From positions 1 to 22,621 of IMG/VR virus record IMGVR_UViG_3300031671_000015: 22,621 bases of DNA; one strand, given 5' to 3'. This document shows, piece after piece, positions 9,011-22,261 of the stretch (positions within the stretch are counted from its first letter, which is position 1; each line of letters begins with the position of its first letter). A program made the translations under genes and the position numbers. The notes below the pieces were generated by a model. It was given only the letters and a program-made list of their open reading frames with translations, made no database searches and was not told where the DNA came from. Origin of the DNA: a virus.

Positions 9011-9256
9011 CTACTTCTTCGCCGCAGGCACGGAGACGCCCGCGCCCGCCGCGACCGGCTCTTTGCCGTCCTTGGGCTTGCCCGCTGCCGCCACCACCGC
9101 GCCCGCCTTGACGACGACGAACTGGTGGTAGGCCAGGAGTTTCTTGCCCTCGGCATCGGAAACGTCCACGACCTGCTCGTGGAGGATTTCCCGCTTTGGG
9201 CCCCCTTCTGCTGCCGGCGGCAGAACGAACTTGCCGCCACGGTTCAAGATTTTCAT
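9011..9256 (-). CDS. small hypothetical protein after the major capsid gene (81 aa)
   Basis: An 81-aa product starting at ATG 9256 with GAGGAG upstream. Residues 1-50 are compact (MKILNRGGKFVLPPAAEGGP, then EQVVDVSDAEGKKLLAYHQFVVVK). Residues 51-81 are an Ala/Gly/Lys/Pro-rich tail. Small proteins with a folded core and a disordered Ala-Lys tail are common directly after DUF2184-type capsid genes and may be minor head components. I cannot name a family. An 11-base near-perfect tandem repeat (AGCCTGCGCTT) lies just at and after its stop. Confidence 0.55.
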   Translation of the reverse strand: MKILNRGGKFVLPPAAEGGPKREILHEQVVDVSDAEGKKLLAYHQFVVVKAGAVVAAAGKPKDGKEPVAAGAGVSVPAAKK

Positions 9257-9305
9257 GCTTTTCTCCTCAAAGAATCATCATCCTGCTGCCTTCGCTATCT
9301 CGCCC

Positions 9306-10394
9306 TTAGGCCGGATAGTCGAAGTAGAGCACCTCGGGCACGCGGTAGACGATGGCGCCAGTGAACTGACCGTAGGCCACGCCGTTCCAGTTGAAGCCGT
9401 CCGCGCTCATCGCGGGGTTCAAGGTGTAGTCCACGGGGAAGTCCATCTTGACCGTCTCCCCGTTCTCCTCGTCCCGGTTGTAGAGCACGTAGCGGTTGGT
9501 CCCGGTCGAATGCCAGAAGCCGGCGTTGCGCGCGGCCATGCCGTAGCGCGAAGGGAGAATCTTGAAGTTCTCCTTGCCGGTCATCTGCTTGAAGGCATCC
9601 AGCATGTATTTGATCATGCTGTTGATCGGGAACTGCGCCGAAGTCGCGGCTCCGAGCCCGAAGAAGTCGTCGTAGGGCATCACGAAGGTGTCCGGCACCT
9701 GCGTGTAGTTGGAGTTGTCCGCGTAGGCTTGCAGCAAGCCCGCCACGACGGCCTGGAAGCTCGAAGGCGAGGACGCCAGGGAGCTGATGGCCGCAGTGAT
9801 GAGCGTGGTGTTCACCGTCACGCTGGAGTTGGAGAACAGACCCGGGTAATGCGACAGGTCCGATTCCAAACCCAGGAAGGCGGTGTCCTGAGTGCCCAGC
9901 GTCCAGATCATCCGGTTGGCCCGGATGCGGGACGTGATGAGGTCCCAGTTGTCGGACGCCAGAGCCTGGTTGATTTCAGCCAGGTCGTAGCCGTATCCGC
10001 TCACCCAGGTCTTGATGTTGGCGGTGATCGGCGTCAAGCCCACCTCGGCGCGGGGGATGTTCGAGGGTCCCGGGTTGAGGGAGTCCCGCAAACCGCCGGC
10101 GAACGACCCGGCGATGATGCCCGTCGCGTTGGTGATGATGTTTCCCAGCCACGCCCCTGCCCCGAAATCGCAGGGAACGAAGTCCGCGATGTTGACCTGG
10201 TAGAGCCTCTGTTGGAGGACTTTAGCGCGGATGAAGGTCGTTGACTGAGTTGCGTATTGATAGCCCAGAGACGAAGAGTCGATGCTCCCGTCGCTGTTCT
10301 TACGGATGGTCATGCCAGGGCGCCAGCGCATCGCTTGCACGCTGTTCTGGAGAGCCCTGAGGTCTGCTCCGACTTGTGAGATTCCGGATTCCAT
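9306..10394 (-). CDS. major capsid protein (DUF2184 type)
   Basis: A 362-aa product. ATG 10394 is preferred over 10403, because the AGGAGG at the end of the previous gene lies too close to the upstream ATG. Motifs include AEVGLTPITANIKTWVSGYGYDLAEINQALASDNWDLITSRIRANRMIWTLGTQDTAFLG and the C-terminal VYRVPEVLYFDYPA. These recall DUF2184 proteins, HK97-fold major capsid proteins that usually accompany DUF2213 proteases and DUF1073 portals, as here. It forms the icosahedral shell. There is no obvious cleavable N-terminal delta domain; scaffolding is supplied by the gene two positions upstream. Confidence 0.88.
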   Translation of the reverse strand: MESGISQVGADLRALQNSVQAMRWRPGMTIRKNSDGSIDSSSLGYQYATQSTTFIRAKVLQQRLYQVNIADFVPCDFGAGAWLGNIITNATGIIAGSFAGGLRDSLNPGPSNIPRAEVGLTPITANIKTWVSGYGYDLAEINQALASDNWDLITSRIRANRMIWTLGTQDTAFLGLESDLSHYPGLFSNSSVTVNTTLITAAISSLASSPSSFQAVVAGLLQAYADNSNYTQVPDTFVMPYDDFFGLGAATSAQFPINSMIKYMLDAFKQMTGKENFKILPSRYGMAARNAGFWHSTGTNRYVLYNRDEENGETVKMDFPVDYTLNPAMSADGFNWNGVAYGQFTGAIVYRVPEVLYFDYPA

Positions 10395-10408: not shown

Positions 10409-10888
10409 CTAGTAGTTCGCGTTGAGCAGCGCCACCCGGAACAGTTGTCCCGAGGCCGCCACATCCAGCGCCTGTGCGATTGTCGTGCCCGAGCCCACGG
10501 CGATCATGCTGATGCTGCCGTCGGTGTTATACTGCAAGAGCTCACCGGGCGTGATGGCCTCTCCGGCCACGTGCCAGATGATCGGGTTGCCGCCAGCGCC
10601 GGGGCAGGCGACGTAAATCTGCCCCGGGGTGGCTACCGAGTTGCTCCTCGTGTTGTAGATGATCATGCCGAAGGGCTTGTCGGTATCCACTGCCGCCAGG
10701 AAATTGAGCGTCCCCTGAGCGGTGATGGTGCTGTCCAGCTTGACGATCTGTCCCGGCTGGAGAGAGCCTGACTGGTTGGGACTCACGATGCCGGCCATGA
10801 TGGTAGCTGTGGGCGGCAGGTTGAAGTCCAGCAGTCCCAGGATAGGAGTGATCCTCTCCTGGTTGGTGATGTTGAGTTGCGATCCCAT
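10409..10888 (-). CDS. capsid decoration / cement protein
   Basis: A 159-aa beta-rich protein between the protease-scaffold and major capsid genes, the usual place of the decoration protein. The sequence is dominated by Gly-containing beta-barrel-like repeats (PGQIVKLDSTITAQGTLNFLAAVDTDKPFGMIIYNTR, then GEAITPGELLQYNTDG). These resemble DUF2190-like head cement proteins that bind at the local three-fold axes and stabilise the packed capsid. A strong Shine-Dalgarno (AAAGGAGG, five bases before ATG) fits the high expression expected of a shell component. Confidence 0.7.
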   Translation of the reverse strand: MGSQLNITNQERITPILGLLDFNLPPTATIMAGIVSPNQSGSLQPGQIVKLDSTITAQGTLNFLAAVDTDKPFGMIIYNTRSNSVATPGQIYVACPGAGGNPIIWHVAGEAITPGELLQYNTDGSISMIAVGSGTTIAQALDVAASGQLFRVALLNANY

Positions 10889-10900
10889 AGATGCCTCCTT

Positions 10901-11608
10901 TTACGCGCGGTGCTCGACGCTTCCCGCGCCGAGGCTATCCATCGTGACGGAACCCTGCGAGGCCGAGTTCATGCGCTCGCGCCCCGCCTTGATCCGATCC
11001 TGCTTGGTCAGAAACGGCACGGCTTGCGGCGCGCCGCCCGGAGGCAAGCCCCGGAGATCGGCCGCATTGCGAAGCTCGGCCGATTTTCCGTTCTTGAGCT
11101 CGTGATTCTCCTTGCGGAGCTTCTCGGCCTCGTCTTCTGCCGCCTGCAACCGCTCTTTCAAATCCTTCTCGGATTTCTCGGAGAGCGTGTGAGCCGCCTC
11201 GGTGCCGTGGGGAGGGTTGTCCTCCGCGCCGGCATCCTTGGGCTGGCCGCCGCCGTCCGCGGCGCCGTGTTCCCGCTCTTGGCGGTCCCGGCGCTCCTTC
11301 TCTTCGCGGTTCTTGCGGTCTTTCTCTTCCTTCTCTTTTCGCTCTTTCTCTTCCGCGTTTCTACGGTTCATGCGATTGCGGTGAGCCTGACGGAGCGCGC
11401 CCAGCTTGACCTTGGCGCCGTTCTCCATCTCGATCTCATCCTCATCCGCCCCGGAGAGAACCCTGTCCTGCCGCTCCTGCTCCGCCATCGCCGAGACCAG
11501 CTCGGCCATGGGAACGGCTTCGCCGTCCACATCGACGAGCACTTCCTCATCGCCCGCATTCAAGCGGAGCGCGGAGGGCTTCGGCTTATTCAGCCATTTG
11601 AACGCCAT
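10901..11608 (-). CDS. internally initiated scaffold protein (nested, same frame)
   Basis: Inside the protease-scaffold gene a perfect AGGAGG (11616-11621 on the minus strand) lies seven bases before an in-frame ATG at 11608, exactly where the protease domain ends. Translation from it would give a 235-aa protein consisting only of the linker and charged coiled-coil scaffold. The lambda C/Nu3 gene pair uses the same arrangement. No promoter is needed. This is a predicted product; the ribosome binding site is the evidence. Confidence 0.6.
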   Translation of the reverse strand: MAFKWLNKPKPSALRLNAGDEEVLVDVDGEAVPMAELVSAMAEQERQDRVLSGADEDEIEMENGAKVKLGALRQAHRNRMNRRNAEEKERKEKEEKDRKNREEKERRDRQEREHGAADGGGQPKDAGAEDNPPHGTEAAHTLSEKSEKDLKERLQAAEDEAEKLRKENHELKNGKSAELRNAADLRGLPPGGAPQAVPFLTKQDRIKAGRERMNSASQGSVTMDSLGAGSVEHRA

Positions 11609-12295
11609 TTTGTAGCCTCCTGTTTTCGAGTTCGCCCGGATGCGGGCTTTTTCGTAGCGGGGGTTCTTGACCAGGGCCAAGTGCGTATACTCCCCGTCCA
11701 AAACTTTCTCCGTGTAGGGGATGGAGTGATGGGTGCCGGCCTTCATGTCCCGACGCGTTGGGACATAGGCGCAGGATACGTGCCAGGCGCCCGACTTGCA
11801 ATGCTCGATTGCGTCTTTTGTCCAAACGATGAAAGCACAATGCCACCAGCCGTCCGCTTCTTTCCAGACATCCGTCACGATGCCGTCGCTCTCGCCTTCC
11901 GCGATCATGGATGGCCAGACATCGGCATGATCCCAGTCCACGACCGGCTTGCCGACCAAGGAACGCGCCATCTTTTCCAACACGTCGGCCTCGAGCAGCA
12001 CCATCTCGTCCTTTGGCTGCTCCTGCGTGGCCTTGTAGAGGCAGGGCCCCGGCTCAATAAAATTGGCGGCGAAGCGCTCAGGCCATATCTGATCGTAGGA
12101 CTCTTTCACATCGCCCGCGCTCGAGGGTCCGGAGTTGGGGGCGCTATAGACGGGCGGCTCCGGGATGTTGCCGTTGGTCATCATGCCGGGCATCACCAGC
12201 GAGGCCATGCGCCCGCTCGGAGAGCCGAAGAGCGCGAAATCCGTGAGGCTCCCGTGACTCGTCCCGCCTTCCATCGCCACTTCTTCTAGGTTCAT
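10901..12295 (-). CDS. DUF2213 prohead protease fused to scaffold
   Basis: A 464-aa protein. ATG 12295 is chosen because AGAGG precedes it; the longer TTG start would lie in the terminator loop. Residues about 60-225 are the DUF2213 region, with GKPVVDWDH, SGAWHVSCAYVP and HLALVKNPRYEKARI. These resemble the His/Ser core of HK97-type prohead proteases; H123 and S174 are my candidates for catalytic residues. From about residue 230 the protein changes to a highly charged coiled coil (EEKERKEKEEKDRKNREEKE) and a second heptad stretch, typical of scaffolding. It should organise procapsid assembly and then digest the scaffold. A second start inside the gene would release the scaffold alone. Confidence 0.75.
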   Translation of the reverse strand: MNLEEVAMEGGTSHGSLTDFALFGSPSGRMASLVMPGMMTNGNIPEPPVYSAPNSGPSSAGDVKESYDQIWPERFAANFIEPGPCLYKATQEQPKDEMVLLEADVLEKMARSLVGKPVVDWDHADVWPSMIAEGESDGIVTDVWKEADGWWHCAFIVWTKDAIEHCKSGAWHVSCAYVPTRRDMKAGTHHSIPYTEKVLDGEYTHLALVKNPRYEKARIRANSKTGGYKMAFKWLNKPKPSALRLNAGDEEVLVDVDGEAVPMAELVSAMAEQERQDRVLSGADEDEIEMENGAKVKLGALRQAHRNRMNRRNAEEKERKEKEEKDRKNREEKERRDRQEREHGAADGGGQPKDAGAEDNPPHGTEAAHTLSEKSEKDLKERLQAAEDEAEKLRKENHELKNGKSAELRNAADLRGLPPGGAPQAVPFLTKQDRIKAGRERMNSASQGSVTMDSLGAGSVEHRA

Positions 12296-12319
12296 GATTT
12301 TTCCTCTTGGCTCCTTGCC

Positions 12320-12370
12320 AAAACGAAAGACCCCGCGAAAGCTCAAAAGATTTCAAGCTCTCGCGGGGTC
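12320..12370 (-). terminator. rho-independent terminator before the capsid genes
   Basis: A 15-bp stem with one mismatch (12329-12343 with 12356-12370) and a 12-base loop. On the minus strand it is followed by TTTCGTTTT. It lies just downstream of the 68-aa gene and just upstream of the protease-scaffold start, so it should end or attenuate transcripts coming from the minor head gene. Confidence 0.8.
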
Positions 12371-12407
12371 CTGGTTTAGGATGCCCGCTTATTCGGCGGC
12401 GTGGGGA

Positions 12408-12614
12408 TTAGAGCGTTGAGTGAACCTCCGTGCGGCCCAGCGCTCCGTGCTTGACGTGCAGAATGAATTGGGCCGTGGCTTTGACCTCGGTGGCGGCGAG
12501 GAGAGTCTTGCAGAACTTGCTCATTTCATCGCTAGTATAAGCCATGGCTAGAAACTTGTCAAGCATTTTTTTACGCTCGGTCCCTTCCGGGACTTCCGAG
12601 ATCGTTGTCAGCAT
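12408..12614 (-). CDS. small hypothetical protein (68 aa, or 38 aa from an internal start)
   Basis: A 68-codon frame starting 13 bases after the minor head protein stop and ending before the terminator. The sequence is mildly charged and helical (ERKKMLDKFLAMAYTSDEMSKFCKTLLAATE ... LHVKHGALGRTEVHSTL). The ATG at 12614 has no good Shine-Dalgarno. A consensus promoter lies inside the frame (12534-12562) and an in-frame ATG at 12524 falls only nine bases after its -10 box. The product may therefore be a 38-aa protein from a nearly leaderless message. I recognise no family. Confidence 0.45.
   Translation of the reverse strand: MLTTISEVPEGTERKKMLDKFLAMAYTSDEMSKFCKTLLAATEVKATAQFILHVKHGALGRTEVHSTL
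12534..12562 (-). promoter_or_regulatory. consensus sigma70 promoter, TTGACA-17-TATACT
   Basis: On the minus strand TTGACA (12557-12562) and TATACT (12534-12539) are separated by exactly 17 bases. Both hexamers are identical to those of two other promoters in this window (19500-19528 and 22293-22321). It would start transcription near 12527, about 200 bases before the terminator. Confidence 0.7.
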
Positions 12615-12627
12615 GTTCTAATCCAGA

Positions 12628-14541
12628 TCAATCGAAGGCGCTGGCAGGAATCTTGTCGCCAATCCTGATGGCCAGAGTGGACTCCGTCTCGACAATGGGC
12701 TCGCAAACGCAGCGGCAGTTTGATACAATGAGCCCTTCTGTTGTATAATACCCCAGTGTAGTTTGGAAATTATAAACATACCCGGAGTATTTAACATGGC
12801 TGACACGCTTAACCCGATCCATCGTCCCGCATCCAATCGCCTGCAATTTGATCCAAGTCCCATCATTCGAGCCTATCTTGACGGGGAGAGTGAGCTTTCC
12901 ATTTCCAAACGAACGGGATATGAACGAGTTGTAATTAGACGCCGTCTCCTTGAGGCTGGTGTCCACATCCGTAATGGTTCCGAAGCCAATCTTATCAGGT
13001 TTTCCAAAATGTCTGCCACCGCGCGGAAGCGGCTGGCTGCCCCGGCTCATGCGGCCGCTAGGAAGATTGCGCCGTCCGTGCGCCGCCAATGGCTGGAGAA
13101 AGCCGCCTTGACGAAATGCAAACGGATCGGGCATGGTGAGAGAGAACTTATGGACATTCTTATCCAACGCGGATTGCCTGCCGAGCCGCAACGGGCTTGT
13201 GGCGCTTATAACATCGACATTTCCGTTGGCTCCGTCGCCGTGGAATTGATCAGCCTTCCCTGGGAAAGAAAAGCTAAGGCCAGATTTCCTGAGCGATTTA
13301 AATACCTCGCTGATCATGGGTATACGCTCATTTCTATATTTTCCTGGGAGATAGGCCAAGTCTTTGGACAGGTCAATGAGATAGTCAGAATCATTGAGGA
13401 CACCTATCGGCTTCCACCCATCCAACGTAAGCACAGGATGATTAGGTGTGGCTCGAATCGTTTTACCCGATTCAAGAACGAGCGTGGTCAATTCGCCGCT
13501 AAACCAGCGCCGGAAACATTTTTCTATACCTCCTCCGAAATCAATCCGTAGATCACCGGGAAGGCAGTTATAATCCTCCCCGGCGTTCTCAGGTTCGCCC
13601 GTGCTCATGTATTGCGCCGGCGCCTTCTGCGCGAAAGAGAACACTCTGCCGTTTAGCTCCTTGTGCCCCGGGCGCACGTCGCCGTCTCCCGCCGTCCGCC
13701 AGACATACCGGAAGATGTTCGCCTTCTGGTATTTCTCCGAGGCGTAGATGGTCATGAAGAGATTCGTCTCTTGCCGGGCCAGGAAGCGCGCCTTGGACTG
13801 CGAGACGCCGTAGCGGCCACCGATGTCCTGGATGAGCGAGGTCGAACGGTAGCCGCCGCGGGCATTGCTCTCAACGATGCCGCGCAGCTCCTTAATCTCG
13901 TCCTCAGCGAAGCGCTTTATCCAGAGCTTCATGTTGTTGGTGTAGAGAGCCGCCATGCGCTTCTTGTCTTCCTCCGTCGCCTGGTCAAACGGGATGCCGA
14001 CTCGCTTGGCGATGGATTTGAAGTGAGTTGCAAAGTGGCCATCCGCCTGCCTGGTCATCTTGTCGGCGCCTAGCTCCTTTGGCGTGATGCGGTCTATCTG
14101 CCGGCGAAGCATCTCATCCGCGGTGGCCAGGAACTGGCGCATCTTGCCGTTAGCGATAGCGCACTTGCGCCCGAAGGCTTCGGCCGCCCGCTGGACTTCC
14201 GGCGGAACCGCATCATTTGCGATGGTGTAGATGCCGCTGCGGTGGTCGAACCGGCCGCCCATGGCTCGTATCGCCCGCCCCAGCGTGGCCGAGAAGCGCC
14301 CGGAGAACACGCCATTGCGATACTGGATCACGCCGCGCTCTAGGGCCTTGGCCAGAGCCTTGGCGTCAGAGTCCATGGAGGCTTCGCGTATCTCCTTGCC
14401 CGCGTTGATTCCAAGCTCCGATTTTATGATGTCGGCCAGGGGCTTGAAGATGAGTTCGTAGAAAATCGCGCGCAGGCCATCATCCACTGGCTCGTAGGCC
14501 CTGCTTGATGGATGATAGCCCGGCAGCGCGATCCGCGGCAT
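12628..14541 (-). CDS. Mu gpF-like minor head (head morphogenesis) protein interrupted by an intein
   Basis: A 637-codon frame. Residues about 240-325 plus 609-620 form the conserved C-terminal domain of SPP1 gp7 / Mu gpF minor head proteins: YGVSQSKARFLARQETN, then FRYVWRTAGDGDVRPGHKELNGRVF, and the closing GEDYN + CRCVCEP. In normal relatives the last two pieces are continuous. Here 283 residues with intein blocks separate N325 from C609. Splicing would yield a 354-aa protein that sits near the portal inside the head. ATG 14541 touches the preceding stop (TAAATG). The intein insertion point is the most conserved motif of the family, as expected for a homing element. Confidence 0.88.
   Translation of the reverse strand: MPRIALPGYHPSSRAYEPVDDGLRAIFYELIFKPLADIIKSELGINAGKEIREASMDSDAKALAKALERGVIQYRNGVFSGRFSATLGRAIRAMGGRFDHRSGIYTIANDAVPPEVQRAAEAFGRKCAIANGKMRQFLATADEMLRRQIDRITPKELGADKMTRQADGHFATHFKSIAKRVGIPFDQATEEDKKRMAALYTNNMKLWIKRFAEDEIKELRGIVESNARGGYRSTSLIQDIGGRYGVSQSKARFLARQETNLFMTIYASEKYQKANIFRYVWRTAGDGDVRPGHKELNGRVFSFAQKAPAQYMSTGEPENAGEDYNCLPGDLRIDFGGGIEKCFRRWFSGELTTLVLESGKTIRATPNHPVLTLDGWKPIGVLNDSDYLIDLSKDLAYLPGKYRNERIPMISEVFKSLRKSGLSFSFPGKADQFHGDGANGNVDVISATSPLRLGRQSALDKNVHKFSLTMPDPFAFRQGGFLQPLAAHGRRNLPSGRMSRGSQPLPRGGRHFGKPDKIGFGTITDVDTSLKETASNYNSFISRSFGNGKLTLPVKIGSNDGTWIKLQAIGCGTMDRVKRVSHVKYSGYVYNFQTTLGYYTTEGLIVSNCRCVCEPIVETESTLAIRIGDKIPASAFD
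12720..12749 (+). promoter_or_regulatory. promoter for the antisense endonuclease gene
   Basis: TTGATA (12720-12725), an 18-base spacer and a perfect TATAAT (12744-12749) on the plus strand, pointing into the endonuclease gene. The expected start is near 12756, giving a leader of about 40 bases. The promoter is embedded in codons for the last block of the intein; the -35 box begins at its final codon. Confidence 0.65.
12796..13551 (+). CDS. homing-endonuclease-like protein (Vsr/EDxHD type) encoded antisense to the intein
   Basis: This is the only convincing plus-strand gene, 251 aa, wholly inside the intein on the other strand. ATG 12796 is chosen because GGAG lies eight bases upstream; a TTG at 12763 is less likely. 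Residues about 20-70 look like a helix-turn-helix (AYLDGESELSISKRTGYERVVIRRRLLEAGVHIRN followed by GSEAN). A basic Ala-rich helical linker follows. Then comes a compact nuclease-like domain: GERELMD (E115), PQRACGAYNIDIS (Q132, D141), VAVELIS (E150), ERFKYLADHGYTLISIF. This order matches Vsr-fold homing endonucleases related to I-Bth0305I, with some residues of the EDxHD signature not evident. It probably cuts intein-less alleles of the minor head gene. The codon register is exactly complementary to the intein's. Confidence 0.75.
   Translation: MADTLNPIHRPASNRLQFDPSPIIRAYLDGESELSISKRTGYERVVIRRRLLEAGVHIRNGSEANLIRFSKMSATARKRLAAPAHAAARKIAPSVRRQWLEKAALTKCKRIGHGERELMDILIQRGLPAEPQRACGAYNIDISVGSVAVELISLPWERKAKARFPERFKYLADHGYTLISIFSWEIGQVFGQVNEIVRIIEDTYRLPPIQRKHRMIRCGSNRFTRFKNERGQFAAKPAPETFFYTSSEINP
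13556..13583 (+). terminator. possible hairpin terminator after the endonuclease gene
   Basis: CCGGGAAGG and CCTCCCCGG pair at 8 of 9 positions around a 10-base loop. It begins five bases after the endonuclease stop codon and spans the intein-extein junction. The following bases are only weakly T-rich, so termination is uncertain; constraint from the junction codons could also explain it. Confidence 0.35.
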
Positions 14542-15021
14542 TTATTCGGTCTTTCCTGCCGCTGGGGTTGCGGCCTCCGGCGCTGATGGTTTCAGAATTC
14601 CTTCCTCTGCCATCTTCGCCAAGCAGAGCGGGCAAGTCACTGCCGCCCCTTGGCCGGCCTTGATGTCGGGATACTTATGCGCCGTGATCCCGCAATACAT
14701 GGCCTGATAGGCTTGGCTCTTTAGGCCGTGGACAAACTGCGTCTGGTCCGCTTCCTGTGGCACGGCCGCTTTATCGGTCGGTGGTTGCTCGGCCGGCTGC
14801 TTCGCTGGCGGCTGCACGACTCCCAGCAGCTTCATCCGCGCGATCTCCGCGAACATGTTCGCTTTCACCACCTCGATCATGCCCAGAGCGAGGATGTTGT
14901 CCGGCGGCGCGCTGTAGCGCAGGTTTCCCGTCAGCGCGTTATACTCGATGCCGATTTGCAGGATGCTCGGCCCCTTCACGCTTTCCAGAATCTTCTGGAT
15001 GTTCTTCGACTGGTTCGACAT
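14542..15021 (-). CDS. small Cys-containing protein of unknown function upstream of the minor head gene
   Basis: A 159-aa product. ATG 15021 is preferred because GGGGGTCGCAA precedes it. Residues 1-72 are a folded-looking mixed region (SILQIGIEYNALTGNLRYSAPPDNILALGMIEVVKANMFAEIARMK). Then comes a Pro/Gln-rich linker (PPAKQPAEQPPTDK) and a C-terminal part with C110, H115, and CPLC at 130-133, which could bind zinc. The tail is Ala/Pro-rich. I recognise no family. The position between the histone-like gene and the minor head gene, and the TAAATG junction with the latter, place it in the head operon. Confidence 0.6.
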   Translation of the reverse strand: MSNQSKNIQKILESVKGPSILQIGIEYNALTGNLRYSAPPDNILALGMIEVVKANMFAEIARMKLLGVVQPPAKQPAEQPPTDKAAVPQEADQTQFVHGLKSQAYQAMYCGITAHKYPDIKAGQGAAVTCPLCLAKMAEEGILKPSAPEAATPAAGKTE

Positions 15022-15395: not shown

Positions 15396-17312
15396 TCAGT
15401 AAACCACATCGGAAACTGGTTGCTCGCCGCCGCCTTTGGGAGTCCCAATGCGGAAGGCGGAGCATTTGCACTCCTTGCCGCCGGACATGGCGGAGCAGGG
15501 GTCCAGGTCGCTGGAGTTGTGATGCTCGAAGTCGTGGCCGCAGTTGCACATGGCGGGGTCCTCGATCTGAGAGCGGCCGTCTTCGCCGTTAGTGCGAGAG
15601 ACATCAAAATCACCGCTCAACAATTCCTGAGACAAAGTGGCCAAAGACCGAGTCTTAGTCTTAATCTTGACACCAAGTTCTTTTTCCATATCGGCTATGC
15701 TCTTGCCATTTTTCCAGCCATCAACCACTTTGCGCTTAAGGTCATCATTGACCCCGTTCTTATGCTCCTTGAACCATTGCACTTCGCCTTCGTGCTTGGC
15801 CGCCTTGGCATGGCTCGGGAAATCGCCCAGGTTCTTGCCCTTGTGGGACAGGAGCCTGAAGTCGTGCTCGCCTTCCTTGACGATGTGGTTTTTGCGATCC
15901 ATGCCAAAAACTGTTTGTTCGGGTCCTACCAATCCTTCCCGGCAGGCCCTACTCATGGCATTGTGTGCTTTTTCCGATGGAAAACCTGCGGCTTCAAGTT
16001 TGCTCTGAGCGCGTTCAAACGAGAAATTCTTGAACATATGAAGATTGCGTTTGATGAATTCATAGGCATCGCTCATATTCTGGCGATCCGCGCCTTTTGC
16101 AATGGATTGCAATTCCTGCTTCACTTCATCGAGCGCGCCGGGCACTTCGCTGGCGTGGAGTCCTTGGCGCAGTTCCATGCCGTTGTGGTAGATGGAGAAG
16201 TCATCGCGGCCCATCTCGCGGACCTCGGGCTTGGCCGCGTTGCCGTGTTCGCGCCCTTTGCTTTTTGCGGCCAATGGCGTCAATGCCTCGCGGTTCGGAA
16301 TGTGGTCCGAGGCGAGATGCTTTCCCACCTTCCCGCAGTTCGGAATGCGGCAGAAGTCATGCGCTTCTTGGCAACCTGCGGGGCAGATCGCAAGATGTTG
16401 GCCGGCGTTGCCGTGTTCGCGCGCCTCGCTATTCCTGCGGCCATGGGCATCCTCGTATGATGTTTTCCAAATACGTTTTACTTCGGATGGCTGCTCGCTA
16501 TAAGGTTTTAGTTTGCCGTAACGCGCCCCGGAAACATCAACAACTGCCTTATCTCCCAATCCCAAAAAGCCAAGCATATCCTTCCCATGCAGTTCCCAGG
16601 CTCGAGCAAGTTCCGATTCGGAGGCGTTGTCCCGCGCGAATTCCGGCTCCATCTCTCCCAACTCATGCTCGATGCCTTCCACATGGCGCCCGATCTCGGC
16701 GATGTCGCCTTTCGGATTGGCGTTTTTGTGCGCCGATGCCGACATGTCATCCAGCAGTAGCCCTAGGTTCTGGGCCTCCTGCCGCATCTCTGCCATCCGC
16801 GCGCCCTGGTCCTCGCCTTCATCCATGGCCGAGAGCTTGTCCGATAGGGCCTGGATGGACATGGCGATGGCCGCCTTAGCGTCCGGAGCCGCGTTCTTGC
16901 GCTCCACGCTCGGGTCTATGCGATAGACATTTCCCGCCGAATCGGTAAACGGCAGGCCCTCCCATTTGAAATCGACGATCTCCTCGCTGGGCATCATGTC
17001 CGCGATGACATTGGCCGCCTGGATGCCGGGCTGATCGAGGTCAAGCAAAAAGACCTCCGTCGGCATGGGCGCCGAGCGCTTCATGCCGTGCTGCGGAAGT
17101 TTGTTGTTCAGGAGCTCCACGGAGATGCCGAGTTCCTCATGTGCCTCGCGCATGGCGGCGTCCCTGGGAGATTCCCGCGCGTCGATGTGGCCGCCGGGCA
17201 GGCCCCAGAAGCCGTCGCGCTCCTTGACTACCAGCACATTGCCGCCGTTGACCACCATGATACGAGCCCGCGGGCCCATGTCCTTTCTCACATCGTCAAA
17301 CCAGTTGCTCAT
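15396..17312 (-). CDS. Nudix hydrolase domain fused to zinc-finger and helical regions (638 aa)
   Basis: The N-terminus (about residues 15-130) is a Nudix domain with a complete Nudix box from G41 to I63 (GHIDARE-x7-REAHEELGI). Such domains hydrolyse nucleoside diphosphates linked to another moiety; the substrate here is unknown. The rest is a long helical protein with a central Cys/His cluster (C310, C314, C321, C326 with nearby His), flanked by two EHGNA repeats. At the end is a second cluster (CNCGH at 589-593, H597, H598, C606, CKC at 615-617). A basic segment near residue 525-560 resembles a helix-turn-helix. The start makes an ATGA overlap with the portal stop. A Nudix fusion inside the head module is unusual; it might be an ejected or virion-bound protein. 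Confidence 0.7.
   Translation of the reverse strand: MSNWFDDVRKDMGPRARIMVVNGGNVLVVKERDGFWGLPGGHIDARESPRDAAMREAHEELGISVELLNNKLPQHGMKRSAPMPTEVFLLDLDQPGIQAANVIADMMPSEEIVDFKWEGLPFTDSAGNVYRIDPSVERKNAAPDAKAAIAMSIQALSDKLSAMDEGEDQGARMAEMRQEAQNLGLLLDDMSASAHKNANPKGDIAEIGRHVEGIEHELGEMEPEFARDNASESELARAWELHGKDMLGFLGLGDKAVVDVSGARYGKLKPYSEQPSEVKRIWKTSYEDAHGRRNSEAREHGNAGQHLAICPAGCQEAHDFCRIPNCGKVGKHLASDHIPNREALTPLAAKSKGREHGNAAKPEVREMGRDDFSIYHNGMELRQGLHASEVPGALDEVKQELQSIAKGADRQNMSDAYEFIKRNLHMFKNFSFERAQSKLEAAGFPSEKAHNAMSRACREGLVGPEQTVFGMDRKNHIVKEGEHDFRLLSHKGKNLGDFPSHAKAAKHEGEVQWFKEHKNGVNDDLKRKVVDGWKNGKSIADMEKELGVKIKTKTRSLATLSQELLSGDFDVSRTNGEDGRSQIEDPAMCNCGHDFEHHNSSDLDPCSAMSGGKECKCSAFRIGTPKGGGEQPVSDVVY
16237..16422. 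repeat. 18-bp direct repeat pair inside the Nudix fusion gene
   Basis: GCGTTGCCGTGTTCGCGC occurs at 16237-16254 and again at 16405-16422, encoding the two REHGNA-type peptides that flank the central Cys/His cluster. A shorter repeat (GTTCGGAATG) lies between them. This suggests internal duplication of a small zinc-binding unit. Confidence 0.7.
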
Positions 17313-19815: not shown

Positions 19816-19840
19816 GGGACTTATATACTTAGCTCAACCA
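19816..19840. repeat. left terminal inverted repeat of the transposon
   Basis: Begins GGGACTTATATACTTAGCTC and is the imperfect inverse of 22310-22334, with 20 of 25 positions matching. It overlaps the last codons of the restriction endonuclease gene. Confidence 0.75.
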
Positions 19841-20547
19841 ATGCGCTCTTTCTTTGAGTAAATGCGGCATACGTCTTTAGGAGAAATCCTGAATTTAGTG
19901 CCATGATTGCGGAGGCCCTTGCTATCCGGCTTTGCCTCCCTGCAATCGAAGTCAATCTTGATTGTTCCAGCCGCCACTTCCCACACAAAGAAATTAAGCT
20001 CTAAATCCTCAAAACAGTCTGTGCGGTCATAAGTGATCTTTTGGCCCTTCCTAACCCCATGAACCAGGACTAACCGGCGCAACTTGGCTCCTGCCGATCC
20101 CATGATGGAGTCGAAGGTCCAATGCGGAACCTGTCCATTAGGGTTTTTTAGCGGCCTTATGATAATCCGGTCATTATCCGTCTCGACTTTGAACATATCG
20201 GATTTGCCCTCAATCGTATGCCGAAAGCTAAGACGGCCCTTGGCGTCCTTCCAGCCCCACTTACTGACCATATAGCGCATGATGCCTTCGGGCTCGGGCT
20301 CTTTGTGGAATAGCGTTATCAGGTTGGTATCTGGCGAATAAAATTTAAGTTCCCATCCTAGCGTATCCGGCACATCTCTATTCCCCGTCGAAAGCCCGAG
20401 TAAATCTTCAAGATACAGACCGGGGGCTCCGGTCCCTGAATACTTCTCCGTTGGCATTTCGTATTTACCATGTTGAACGATTGCGCTAAGACGTTCAAAG
20501 AGTTCTTTCCTGTTTTTTGGAGGGGCGGGCTTGTCGGGAATTGTCAT
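19834..20547 (-). CDS. MvaI/BcnI-type restriction endonuclease
   Basis: A 237-aa protein. Residues 37-68 carry the family signature: SGTGAPGLYLEDLLGL, then NRDVPDTLGWELKFY, with the PD-(D/E)xK catalytic set D61, E66, K68. MvaI and BcnI are monomeric type II enzymes that nick CC(W/S)GG strands sequentially; the target of this one is not known. The start overlaps the methyltransferase stop as ATGA, and the end reaches into the transposon's inverted repeat. Length is close to that of MvaI (about 250 aa). The frame looks intact. Confidence 0.8.
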   Translation of the reverse strand: MTIPDKPAPPKNRKELFERLSAIVQHGKYEMPTEKYSGTGAPGLYLEDLLGLSTGNRDVPDTLGWELKFYSPDTNLITLFHKEPEPEGIMRYMVSKWGWKDAKGRLSFRHTIEGKSDMFKVETDNDRIIIRPLKNPNGQVPHWTFDSIMGSAGAKLRRLVLVHGVRKGQKITYDRTDCFEDLELNFFVWEVAAGTIKIDFDCREAKPDSKGLRNHGTKFRISPKDVCRIYSKKERIG

Positions 20548-21350
20548 TTTTTCATGAGTCGTCGTGATGCCTGGATTCTTTCCCTTGCCAGCTTGCAGTA
20601 ATCCTTTGAGAGTTCAAAGCCGATCCAGTCCCGCTTACAGACTTCGGCGGCTATGGCCGTCGTTCCCGAGCCCATGAACGGATCGAGTACGATTTTGGCA
20701 TTTGTGGACTGGATGCACCTTTGAGCTAATTCTATCGGAAAAGGAGCTGGATGGGGATTATTGTTTTCCTGGGGAATTTGCCAAACGTCCCCCGCCGCGT
20801 TTGCCTTATCCGCAAGTCGAAAGTCCGGCTTGCAGATTAGATAAATAACCTCATAGGTCGGGAGGAAATATCCCGCGTTGAAATTGAAGCCGCCCGAGCG
20901 TTTCCAGATGATGATTTGACGGACTGGGAAGCCTTCGACAATATCATGGCGGTCCTGTAAAACTCCGTCTTGAACGCGCCACTTGTGGTTATAGAAAATC
21001 GCGCCATCTTCACGGAGAACGCGCATCATAGAAGCAATGCAATCGCGTTGCCATTTAACGTATTCCTCATGAGGCATACAGTCGTCGTGATTCTCGTAGC
21101 CTTTTATCAGTTTCGCATTGGCCCACTTCCCGCCGCGTCCGTCCTTCATGCCGTTTCCGGTGCTGTTGCGTAGGTTATAGGGCGGGCTCGTTACGATCAG
21201 GTCCACGGAGCCTACGGGCATACGGTTCATGAGTTCAATACAATCCCCATCATGAACTTGATTTAACCAAGCCTTCAACGCTGATAACGGAACCCGAGTA
21301 ACCGCCGCTCTAAGTAGGTCGAACATGGCGAGGGAATGTTGTTTGTTCAT
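20544..21350 (-). CDS. beta-class DNA amino-methyltransferase (N4-cytosine or N6-adenine), modification partner
   Basis: A 268-aa protein with catalytic motif IV TSPPYN (54-59) before the AdoMet motif DPFMGSGTT (223-231). This is the order of beta-class enzymes. A serine in SPPY favours N4-methylcytosine, which would suit an MvaI/BcnI partner. Other motifs include REDGAIFYNHKWR and the FELSKDYCKLARERI end. It overlaps the transposase stop (ATGA) and the endonuclease start (ATGA), so the modification enzyme is translated before the endonuclease. No separate control protein is present. Confidence 0.88.
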   Translation of the reverse strand: MNKQHSLAMFDLLRAAVTRVPLSALKAWLNQVHDGDCIELMNRMPVGSVDLIVTSPPYNLRNSTGNGMKDGRGGKWANAKLIKGYENHDDCMPHEEYVKWQRDCIASMMRVLREDGAIFYNHKWRVQDGVLQDRHDIVEGFPVRQIIIWKRSGGFNFNAGYFLPTYEVIYLICKPDFRLADKANAAGDVWQIPQENNNPHPAPFPIELAQRCIQSTNAKIVLDPFMGSGTTAIAAEVCKRDWIGFELSKDYCKLARERIQASRRLMKK

Positions 21351-22261
21351 GCCACTAACCCCTTATAAGTTAGGCGCATTCCCGAGGAATGGCCGAGCAA
21401 AGAATCTAACCGGCTTTCCTGGGATAACTGCCCCATGTTCCAACGTGTCTCAAACTCAGCGAGATAACGCGGTAAGTGCTTCCAGGTGAAATGATGAAAC
21501 ACGCCGTAATAGCCGCGCTTTAAGAGCGCCCAAAAGCTCTCTATCCCGTTGGTGTAGGCTTGCCCACGGACGTATTCCCGCATACTGTGATTGACGCTCT
21601 CATGGTCGTAATCTTTGAGCCCGAGATATGACCTATGATCGTCCGTGTAGAGCTTCGATCCGGCAACCACGTTTTGCTTAATGAAGTCGTGAAGCTGGTC
21701 CTTTTCCGTGTTGGGGATCATTTTAGTCTTAACCCTGCCGCCTCTTTCACGCGCTCCAATTACGGCCTGTTTGCCGGACGGTCCGCGTCCCTCATGGAGC
21801 TTTTTATCGAAGTGTTTGTTTTTCTCTTTGCCGCCCAAATACGTTTCGTCGGCTTCAACGATCCCGCTGATGGGTCCACCGATCGCGCCCATTGCCCCCG
21901 CAACCTCTCTAAGCCGCCCAAGCATGAACCAAGCCGTTTTCTGCGTCACGCCGATTTCACGCGCCAACTGACAACTGCTGATCCCCTTCCTATTTGAAGT
22001 GAGAAGGAACGCGGCGGCAAACCACTGGCGCAAAGGAAGGCGGCTCTCTTCAAAAATTGTACCCTTTCGGACCGAAAACATTTTGCGGCAATCGGCGCAT
22101 TTATAGCCTTCACCACGCGATACATGATACACTTTTCTACAGCTTCCACAACAGGGGCAAACAATGCCTTTCGGCCAGCGCATTTTTTCAAGATGTTCAA
22201 TACATGATTTCTCCGTCGGAAAATTCTCTAGCATCTGGAAAAGTCCTTTTTCTTTTTTCAC
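21347..22261 (-). CDS. IS1595-family (ISXO2-like) transposase
   Basis: A 304-aa transposase. The N-terminal zinc ribbon has C35 with C37/C38 (CPCCG) and C55, C58. A helix-turn-helix follows (GISSCQLAREIGVTQKTAWFMLGRLR). The ISXO2 catalytic domain has VEADETYLGG (D138), LYTDDHRSY (D207/D208), and NGIESFWALLKRGYYGVFHH (N238, E241, K248). These correspond to the DDN(E/K)-type catalytic core of the family. GTG 22261 is used with AAGGAG nine bases upstream. Its stop overlaps the methyltransferase start, so the cargo is expressed from the transposase promoter. The frame is intact. Confidence 0.92.
   Translation of the reverse strand: MKKEKGLFQMLENFPTEKSCIEHLEKMRWPKGIVCPCCGSCRKVYHVSRGEGYKCADCRKMFSVRKGTIFEESRLPLRQWFAAAFLLTSNRKGISSCQLAREIGVTQKTAWFMLGRLREVAGAMGAIGGPISGIVEADETYLGGKEKNKHFDKKLHEGRGPSGKQAVIGARERGGRVKTKMIPNTEKDQLHDFIKQNVVAGSKLYTDDHRSYLGLKDYDHESVNHSMREYVRGQAYTNGIESFWALLKRGYYGVFHHFTWKHLPRYLAEFETRWNMGQLSQESRLDSLLGHSSGMRLTYKGLVA

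Follow-up and report, generated by a model that had tools for sequence, protein, structure and literature searches.

The locus considered here raises the question of whether the two strands of a single DNA segment can encode the two halves of a mobile intein, one strand providing protein splicing and the other mobility. The window, which is the whole stretch of DNA analysed, is a 22,621-bp virus record from a tailed phage, with genes for a major capsid protein, a Phage_portal_3 portal protein and a MuF head protein. The minor head protein (637 aa, minus strand, 14541-12628) is of the Phage_Mu_F/SPP1-gp7 type and is encoded by one continuous frame of 637 codons, within which an insert of 283 aa (minus strand, 13566-12718) lies between GEDYN and CRC. 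Between the portal and minor head protein genes, a 638-aa protein with an N-terminal NUDIX domain is encoded (15396-17312, minus strand), and beside the portal end are found, in a row, genes for an MvaI/BcnI-family restriction endonuclease, an N6/N4 DNA methylase and an IS1595-type transposase (19834-22261, minus strand).

The insert contains splicing blocks A, B, F and G, with Cys1, the sequence TPNH as the TxxH motif of block B, a C-terminal Ser-Asn283 and a +1 Cys, and on these sequence features it is classed as an intein. Pfam (Intein_splicing, E=1e-9; intein_Nterm) and NCBIfam name it as such, DnaB and RecA inteins are also matched, and the top Foldseek matches of its structural model are inteins. 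The penultimate residue is Ser and not His, a substitution shared with some other family members. In the structural model the ends (aa 1-71 and 248-283) are folded and the linker (aa 129-246) is predicted to be disordered (pLDDT <50). Family profile searches found no endonuclease families in the intein polypeptide, so it has no fused in-frame endonuclease domain. Both the position and residues of the minus-strand intein and the lack of an endonuclease in its linker had been proposed in an earlier, sequence-only reading of this DNA, which was correct on these points. No Rfam intron match was found in window positions 12000-14600, and the sense product is an intein, which argues against a group I intron. 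In addition, the head gene and the intein are unbroken, and the insert is therefore not a split intein or a fractured gene.

Table 1. Coordinates of features of the intein and its antisense gene in the window (a slash marks an insertion point).
Feature	Position	Strand	Basis
Intein, insertion site GEDYN/CRC	12718..13566	-	Pfam, Foldseek
Intein block B (GKTIRATPNHPVLT)	13426..13467	-	Alignment; intein-strand selection z 5.6
Intein blocks F and G (GYVYNFQTTLGYYTTEGLIVSN)	12718..12783	-	Alignment; intein-strand selection z 3.4
Intein linker aa 129-246, mirror of HTH half of antisense gene	12829..13182	-	pLDDT <50; median z 0.2
N-extein of minor head protein	13567..14541	-	Phage_Mu_F 6e-10, TIGR01641 3e-13
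C-extein of minor head protein (CRCVCEPIV...)	12628..12717	-	
Antisense gene, HTH and Vsr/EDxHD-like nuclease, presumed homing endonuclease, 251 aa	12796..13551	+	Homologues, shuffle z 5.6-17, pLDDT 84
Helix-turn-helix and adjoining helix, aa 21-71	12856..13008	+	Pfam HTH_23/HTH_7 in several members; model helices
Nuclease domain, aa 110-209	13123..13422	+	Alignment, 3hrl profile match, fold matches, Pfam MTES_1575
Active-site segment YNIDISVGSVAVE, aa 138-150	13207..13245	+	Minus-strand mirror is intein motif FHGDG..NVDV
Sigma-70-like promoter TTGATA-N18-TATAAT, C-extein/intein junction	12720..12749	+	Predicted
Shine-Dalgarno GGAG before ATG 12796	12784..12787	+	Sequence; predicted
Family's usual ATG site (mirror of block F His), here ATA	12778..12780	+	Upstream-region comparison

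The plus strand of the same DNA contains the intact 251-aa frame that the sequence-only reading had described, running from ATG 12796 to a TAG at 13549-13551. This frame begins just inside block F and stops within the intein, at the codon of intein residue 6, and the two frames lie codon on codon, with position 1 of one codon opposite position 3 of the other. Searches with the plus-strand protein (tblastn) gave 121 phage records, and at the fetched loci the match was antisense to an intein in all but one; IMG/VR added 33 loci, and then more. Clustering at 90% nucleotide identity defined 41 lineages, in 39 of which both frames are open: over the 10,112 codons of matched antisense gene the intein register is free of stops, whereas the two remaining antisense frames contain 20 and 8 on average. 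The other two lineages are L013, with a single TAG, and L053, a free-standing member. In L013 the lone TAG (position 1573) is on the intein strand in the linker and the antisense gene is intact; this nonsense codon could be a sequencing error, be suppressed or reflect decay.

At all nested loci the endonuclease frame is opposite to the host-gene strand, and its stop is reached within the intein, at a distance of 2 to 16 codons from the intein start (Cys+6 in most lineages). All six fetched MuF and deaminase intein loci that were scored in addition to the antisense matches carry the antisense frame. Annotation at the fetched loci gives a head protein and omits the antisense gene, except for a short fragment in phage vB_StyS-sam, and the free-standing member is the other annotated case among the phage records examined. 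The arrangement is a widespread family, not unique to the window, and is present in well over a hundred sequenced phages. A search for related loci with the intein protein as query gave no confirmed match, and neither did two GTDB scans yield a confirmed relative; the GTDB patterns were narrow, so these scans are not evidence of absence from prophages.

Selection on the two strands was examined by permuting synonymous codons of the intein, which leaves the intein protein unchanged and destroys the antisense protein. Antisense similarity was above that of the shuffles in 190 of 190 pairs (z >4, median 7.7, minimum 4.2), with z of 5.6-17 for pairs that include the window, and the reverse test gave a median z of 5.5. 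Control genes (capsid, protease, portal and N-exteins) gave z of -0.9 to 1.8, with 3.7 for one recent, close extein pair; the same test gave 13-15 when applied to the inteins of close relatives of the window. By region, antisense-strand selection was found over the HTH (z 6.2) and the nuclease (z 4.8), and intein-strand selection over blocks A/B (z 5.6) and block F (z 3.4). Intein-strand selection was absent over the linker mirroring the HTH half (median z 0.2), with none over intein aa 148-257 and a weak signal over aa 68-147. Site rates show third positions of the antisense gene to be most variable over the linker, and third positions of the intein to be most variable over the splicing blocks.

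A recent pair illustrates this. Between Salmonella phage LPSE1 and Escherichia phage Snoke, differences at intein codon positions 1, 2 and 3 number 26, 3 and 8, and 24 codons alter the intein only and 5 the antisense protein only, so that the differences are mostly silent for the endonuclease. Moreover, endonuclease and splicing blocks co-diverge (r=0.84), and each is more weakly correlated with the N-extein (0.77 and 0.71). The substitution patterns thus show the intein linker to be under selection for the endonuclease and the splicing blocks under selection for the intein. Coding on both strands, as proposed in the sequence-only reading, is borne out by the shuffle and site-rate tests, with selection partitioned by region and not confined to the intein strand.

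The AlphaFold2 model of the antisense protein (pLDDT 84) has an alpha-beta-beta-beta-alpha-beta core, in the order H115-124, E129-135, E138-144, E147-152, H163-173 and E177-182. The first Foldseek match in the PDB was the I-Bth0305I catalytic domain (probability 1.0, with a modest E of 5.6e-3), and fold matches of the nuclease domain include 3r3p, 1cw0 and 3hrl. VIA realignment of this predicted model gave Z 10.7 for Vsr (rmsd 2.6, 112 aligned), Z 9.8 for 3hrl (rmsd 2.0, 89 aligned) and Z 9.4 for I-Bth0305I (rmsd 3.2, 94 aligned). A phmmer search of the PDB with the single antisense protein gave no match, and the family profile matched 3hrl at 5e-4. Pfam MTES_1575 was matched by 11 of 18 members (best 1.6e-7) and HTH families by several, and PHROGs and NCBIfam hold no model spanning the whole antisense protein, their matches being to the HTH or nuclease parts. 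Residues E115, Q132, Y138, D141, A148, E150 and R167 are invariant in the family alignment; in the EDxHD signature the E and D/E positions are invariant and the downstream His is found in some members only (for example L037 and L042). By its predicted core and acidic residues E115, D141 and E150, the protein is placed among the Vsr/EDxHD-like PD-(D/E)XK nucleases. This is in keeping with the helix-turn-helix and Vsr/EDxHD-like core read earlier from the sequence, and the family profile, Pfam and fold matches place the protein in a nuclease superfamily.

The two alignments pair nuclease E150 with intein F108, A148 with G110 and Q132 with L126. The strongly conserved FHGD...DV motif of the intein linker and the nuclease motif D..VG.VAVE are complements of one another, and in lineages whose nuclease retains V or I the intein His is replaced by Tyr or Asn (L042, L031). 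The linker motif FHGDG is the mirror of the nuclease active site.

All predicted signals of the antisense gene (promoter, Shine-Dalgarno, start and stop) fall within the intein or at its border. Most relatives have an antisense start region that reads nearly as TTTGGAGGTTATAAACATG, the complement of block F HVYNLQ, and the ATG mirrors the block F His. As Tyr replaces this His in the window, the canonical ATG reads ATA there and initiation would have to occur at ATG 12796, six codons downstream of the family site, or at an alternative codon. Three lineages (L002, L011 and L013) have a perfect TTGACA-N18-TATAAT that ends 28 nt before the ATG, with the -35 at the intein-extein junction. Under synonymous shuffling the evidence across the family is statistical, for promoters (Fisher P about 1e-3) as well as for Shine-Dalgarno enrichment (Fisher P about 2e-5), and in many lineages the promoter matches at only 7-9 of 12 positions. 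Antisense promoters are thus suggestive and not universal: the claim that the gene has its own promoter and Shine-Dalgarno holds for predicted signals in the window, but as regards the promoter does not extend to the whole family.

The insertion sites seen number at least four and belong to two gene families: MuF N/CRC, MuF STT/CRARD, MuF WV/CTIDGK and dCMP deaminase CVA/CAKRL. In L050 (Virus Rctr197k, 619-2025), the intein and its antisense endonuclease are located in a dCMP/cytidine deaminase (PF00383, 1.8e-15), which is annotated in its record as a putative head morphogenesis protein. Empty sites were sought with joined flanks as the query, a match being counted if it covered at least 80% of the joined query length. 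Exact empty sites proved common: intact intein-less genes were found in 215 records of Salmonella/Escherichia type with the LPSE1 query and in 80 Gordonia records with the Vivi2 query, and among the matches listed those of Klebsiella type align uninterrupted across the junction. LPSE1 and Snoke are 95.5% identical in the intein, 69% in the N-extein and 82% in the C-extein, which shows that copies have moved between phage genera. Snoke and the Escherichia phage fEg-Eco06 (L048), sibling phages whose exteins are 90% alike, differ both in the family member that they carry and in its place within the head gene, and each is empty at the site occupied in the other. Sporadic presence at an identical site, together with horizontal transfer, marks the insert as a mobile element; horizontal transfer of inteins alone does not identify the driving enzyme. 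The free-standing homologue in Acinetobacter phage IME285 (L053, 413-1345) is convergent with, and directly downstream of, an intein-less MuF gene, an orientation shared with the nested form, which suggests that the nested gene was derived from a free-standing one, or the reverse.

The locus is very probably a mobile intein with an antisense homing endonuclease, copied as a unit by repair at empty sites. This reading builds on the two open frames, dual selection, the predicted nuclease fold, empty sites, inter-genus transfer and several insertion sites, and from these we infer splicing, antisense expression, site-specific cleavage and homing. The minus strand codes for an intein in which a linker, probably of little use for splicing, connects the splicing halves (blocks A/B and F/G). 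This linker would be kept open by the presence, on the plus strand, of the gene for the mobility enzyme, a separate HTH and Vsr/EDxHD-like endonuclease read codon on codon in antisense. The head gene would be translated together with the intein, which would then excise itself, and a promoter located inside the intein or at its border would separately drive an antisense mRNA. The endonuclease would cut intein-less alleles at the rejoined site, leading to repair that copies the whole unit, and it is probably this enzyme that spreads the insert.

Such a reading requires the antisense gene to be real. A GC-rich gene avoids TTA, CTA and TCA codons and can thereby leave its opposite strand open by chance, and ORF length alone is weak evidence because longer antisense ORFs, of 366 aa (9144-10244, plus strand) and 470 aa (10877-12289, plus strand), overlie other genes of the same contig. 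These two cover the capsid and protease-like genes, over which the antisense frame tested was not conserved in a relative, and both look like composition artefacts. Given the host gene's codon usage, the antisense frame would stay open by chance with a probability of 0.001 for the window alone and of 0.04-0.17 in the most GC-rich loci and a few others, which leaves room for chance, but it falls to 7e-16 at one locus of 36% GC. The z of 13-15 for antisense conservation, against about 0 in control genes, the antisense identity of 57% where the intein is only 40% identical, the predicted nuclease fold and a free-standing homologue that exists without any antisense frame all speak against a chance ORF, which is scarcely credible and is ruled out by the comparative tests (open-frame probabilities, synonymous shuffles and control genes). 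Antisense similarity as a mere echo of intein similarity was also rejected, because antisense identity exceeds intein identity in close pairs and shuffles that keep the intein abolish antisense similarity. The proof of a real gene is comparative, namely its conservation over 41 lineages.

A real antisense protein could have another role, as a DNA-binding regulator, a defence nuclease or a factor excluding rival phages. It has an HTH domain, the free-standing member adjoins an intein-less target gene in the Acinetobacter phage, and free-standing phage homing enzymes can exclude rivals. This role is nevertheless improbable, since the gene is nested in an intein in every lineage except the free-standing one, its acidic nuclease residues are invariant, and sporadic presence, exact empty sites and inter-genus transfer are the expected products of a homing enzyme. 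It is more doubtful still that the intein no longer splices, with the endonuclease alone parasitising the head gene and the linker tolerated in the protein. The nonsense codon in the intein of L013, beside an intact antisense gene, and the Ser in place of the penultimate His in some members would fit such a loss, but C1, TxxH, N283 and the +1 Cys are invariant, the splicing blocks are under intein-strand selection (z about 3-5.6), and an intein placed within the Mu-F domain's conserved CRC motif would presumably have to be removed.

A mobile intein with an antisense homing endonuclease would represent a new intein architecture, in which one strand of a DNA segment provides splicing and the other mobility. 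It is also a case, with unusually good support, of antisense protein coding that is conserved and almost full-length. The family is likely to be an unrecognised, widespread class of mobile element of roughly 800-1000 bp, in which complementary strands code for an intein and a homing endonuclease, the splicing blocks double as antisense promoter, ribosome-binding site, start and stop, and the whole has reached, as a unit, four or more sites distributed over two gene families. With dual coding, fewer routes of decay would be available to either protein, a constraint relevant to the retention or loss of endonucleases by inteins, and the conserved linker motif of these inteins is a reflection of the enzyme's active site. 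Cultured carriers (Salmonella Jerseyvirus, Escherichia phage Snoke and Gordonia phage Vivi2) allow direct testing of all steps.

No description of an antisense, opposite-strand or overlapping endonuclease in an intein was found in the open-access literature searched, and as far as that search reached this architecture of a mobile intein has not been described before, although priority is not certain. The sequence-only reading, which knew of no described case, therefore stands on this point for the literature searched, but the arrangement itself recurs across the family, with both strands open in 39 of 41 lineages. That reading also set the locus apart from fused, free-standing and split endonucleases; the gene is neither fused nor split, but a free-standing homologue does exist (L053).

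As in canonical LAGLIDADG and HNH inteins, splicing blocks flank the mobility function, the insertion point is at conserved host-protein residues, and there are empty sites and horizontal transfer. Unlike in those inteins, the intein polypeptide does not include the endonuclease, which has a separate gene on the opposite strand that overlaps the splicing blocks. In fractured genes, the intein is said to be split, with the endonuclease gene between its halves. These systems and I-Bth0305I share with the window element a nuclease fold class tied to phage inteins; they differ in that here the intein is unbroken and has the endonuclease superimposed on it in antisense. PMC12350094 attributes split inteins with EDxHD endonucleases to Dassa 2009. 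A hidden HNH endonuclease, the ShiLan domain, occurs in a phage methylase in which no intein or other splicing domain was detected, and endonuclease parasitism with an insert tolerated in the host protein has been proposed for it (PMC11855218). Both there and here the insert is open in the frame of the host gene and has an endonuclease overprinted in a second frame, but the ShiLan enzyme is an HNH nuclease on the same strand, whereas the present one is Vsr-like, on the opposite strand and within a true intein. Group I introns with antisense homing endonuclease genes, such as Dsq.L2066, are RNA elements (PMC9548176). They resemble the present case in combining a self-splicing element with an antisense endonuclease that has its own transcription (here predicted). 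In these introns the endonuclease is inserted in a peripheral segment of an RNA element in an rRNA gene, whereas in the window element both strands are protein-coding over almost the whole element.
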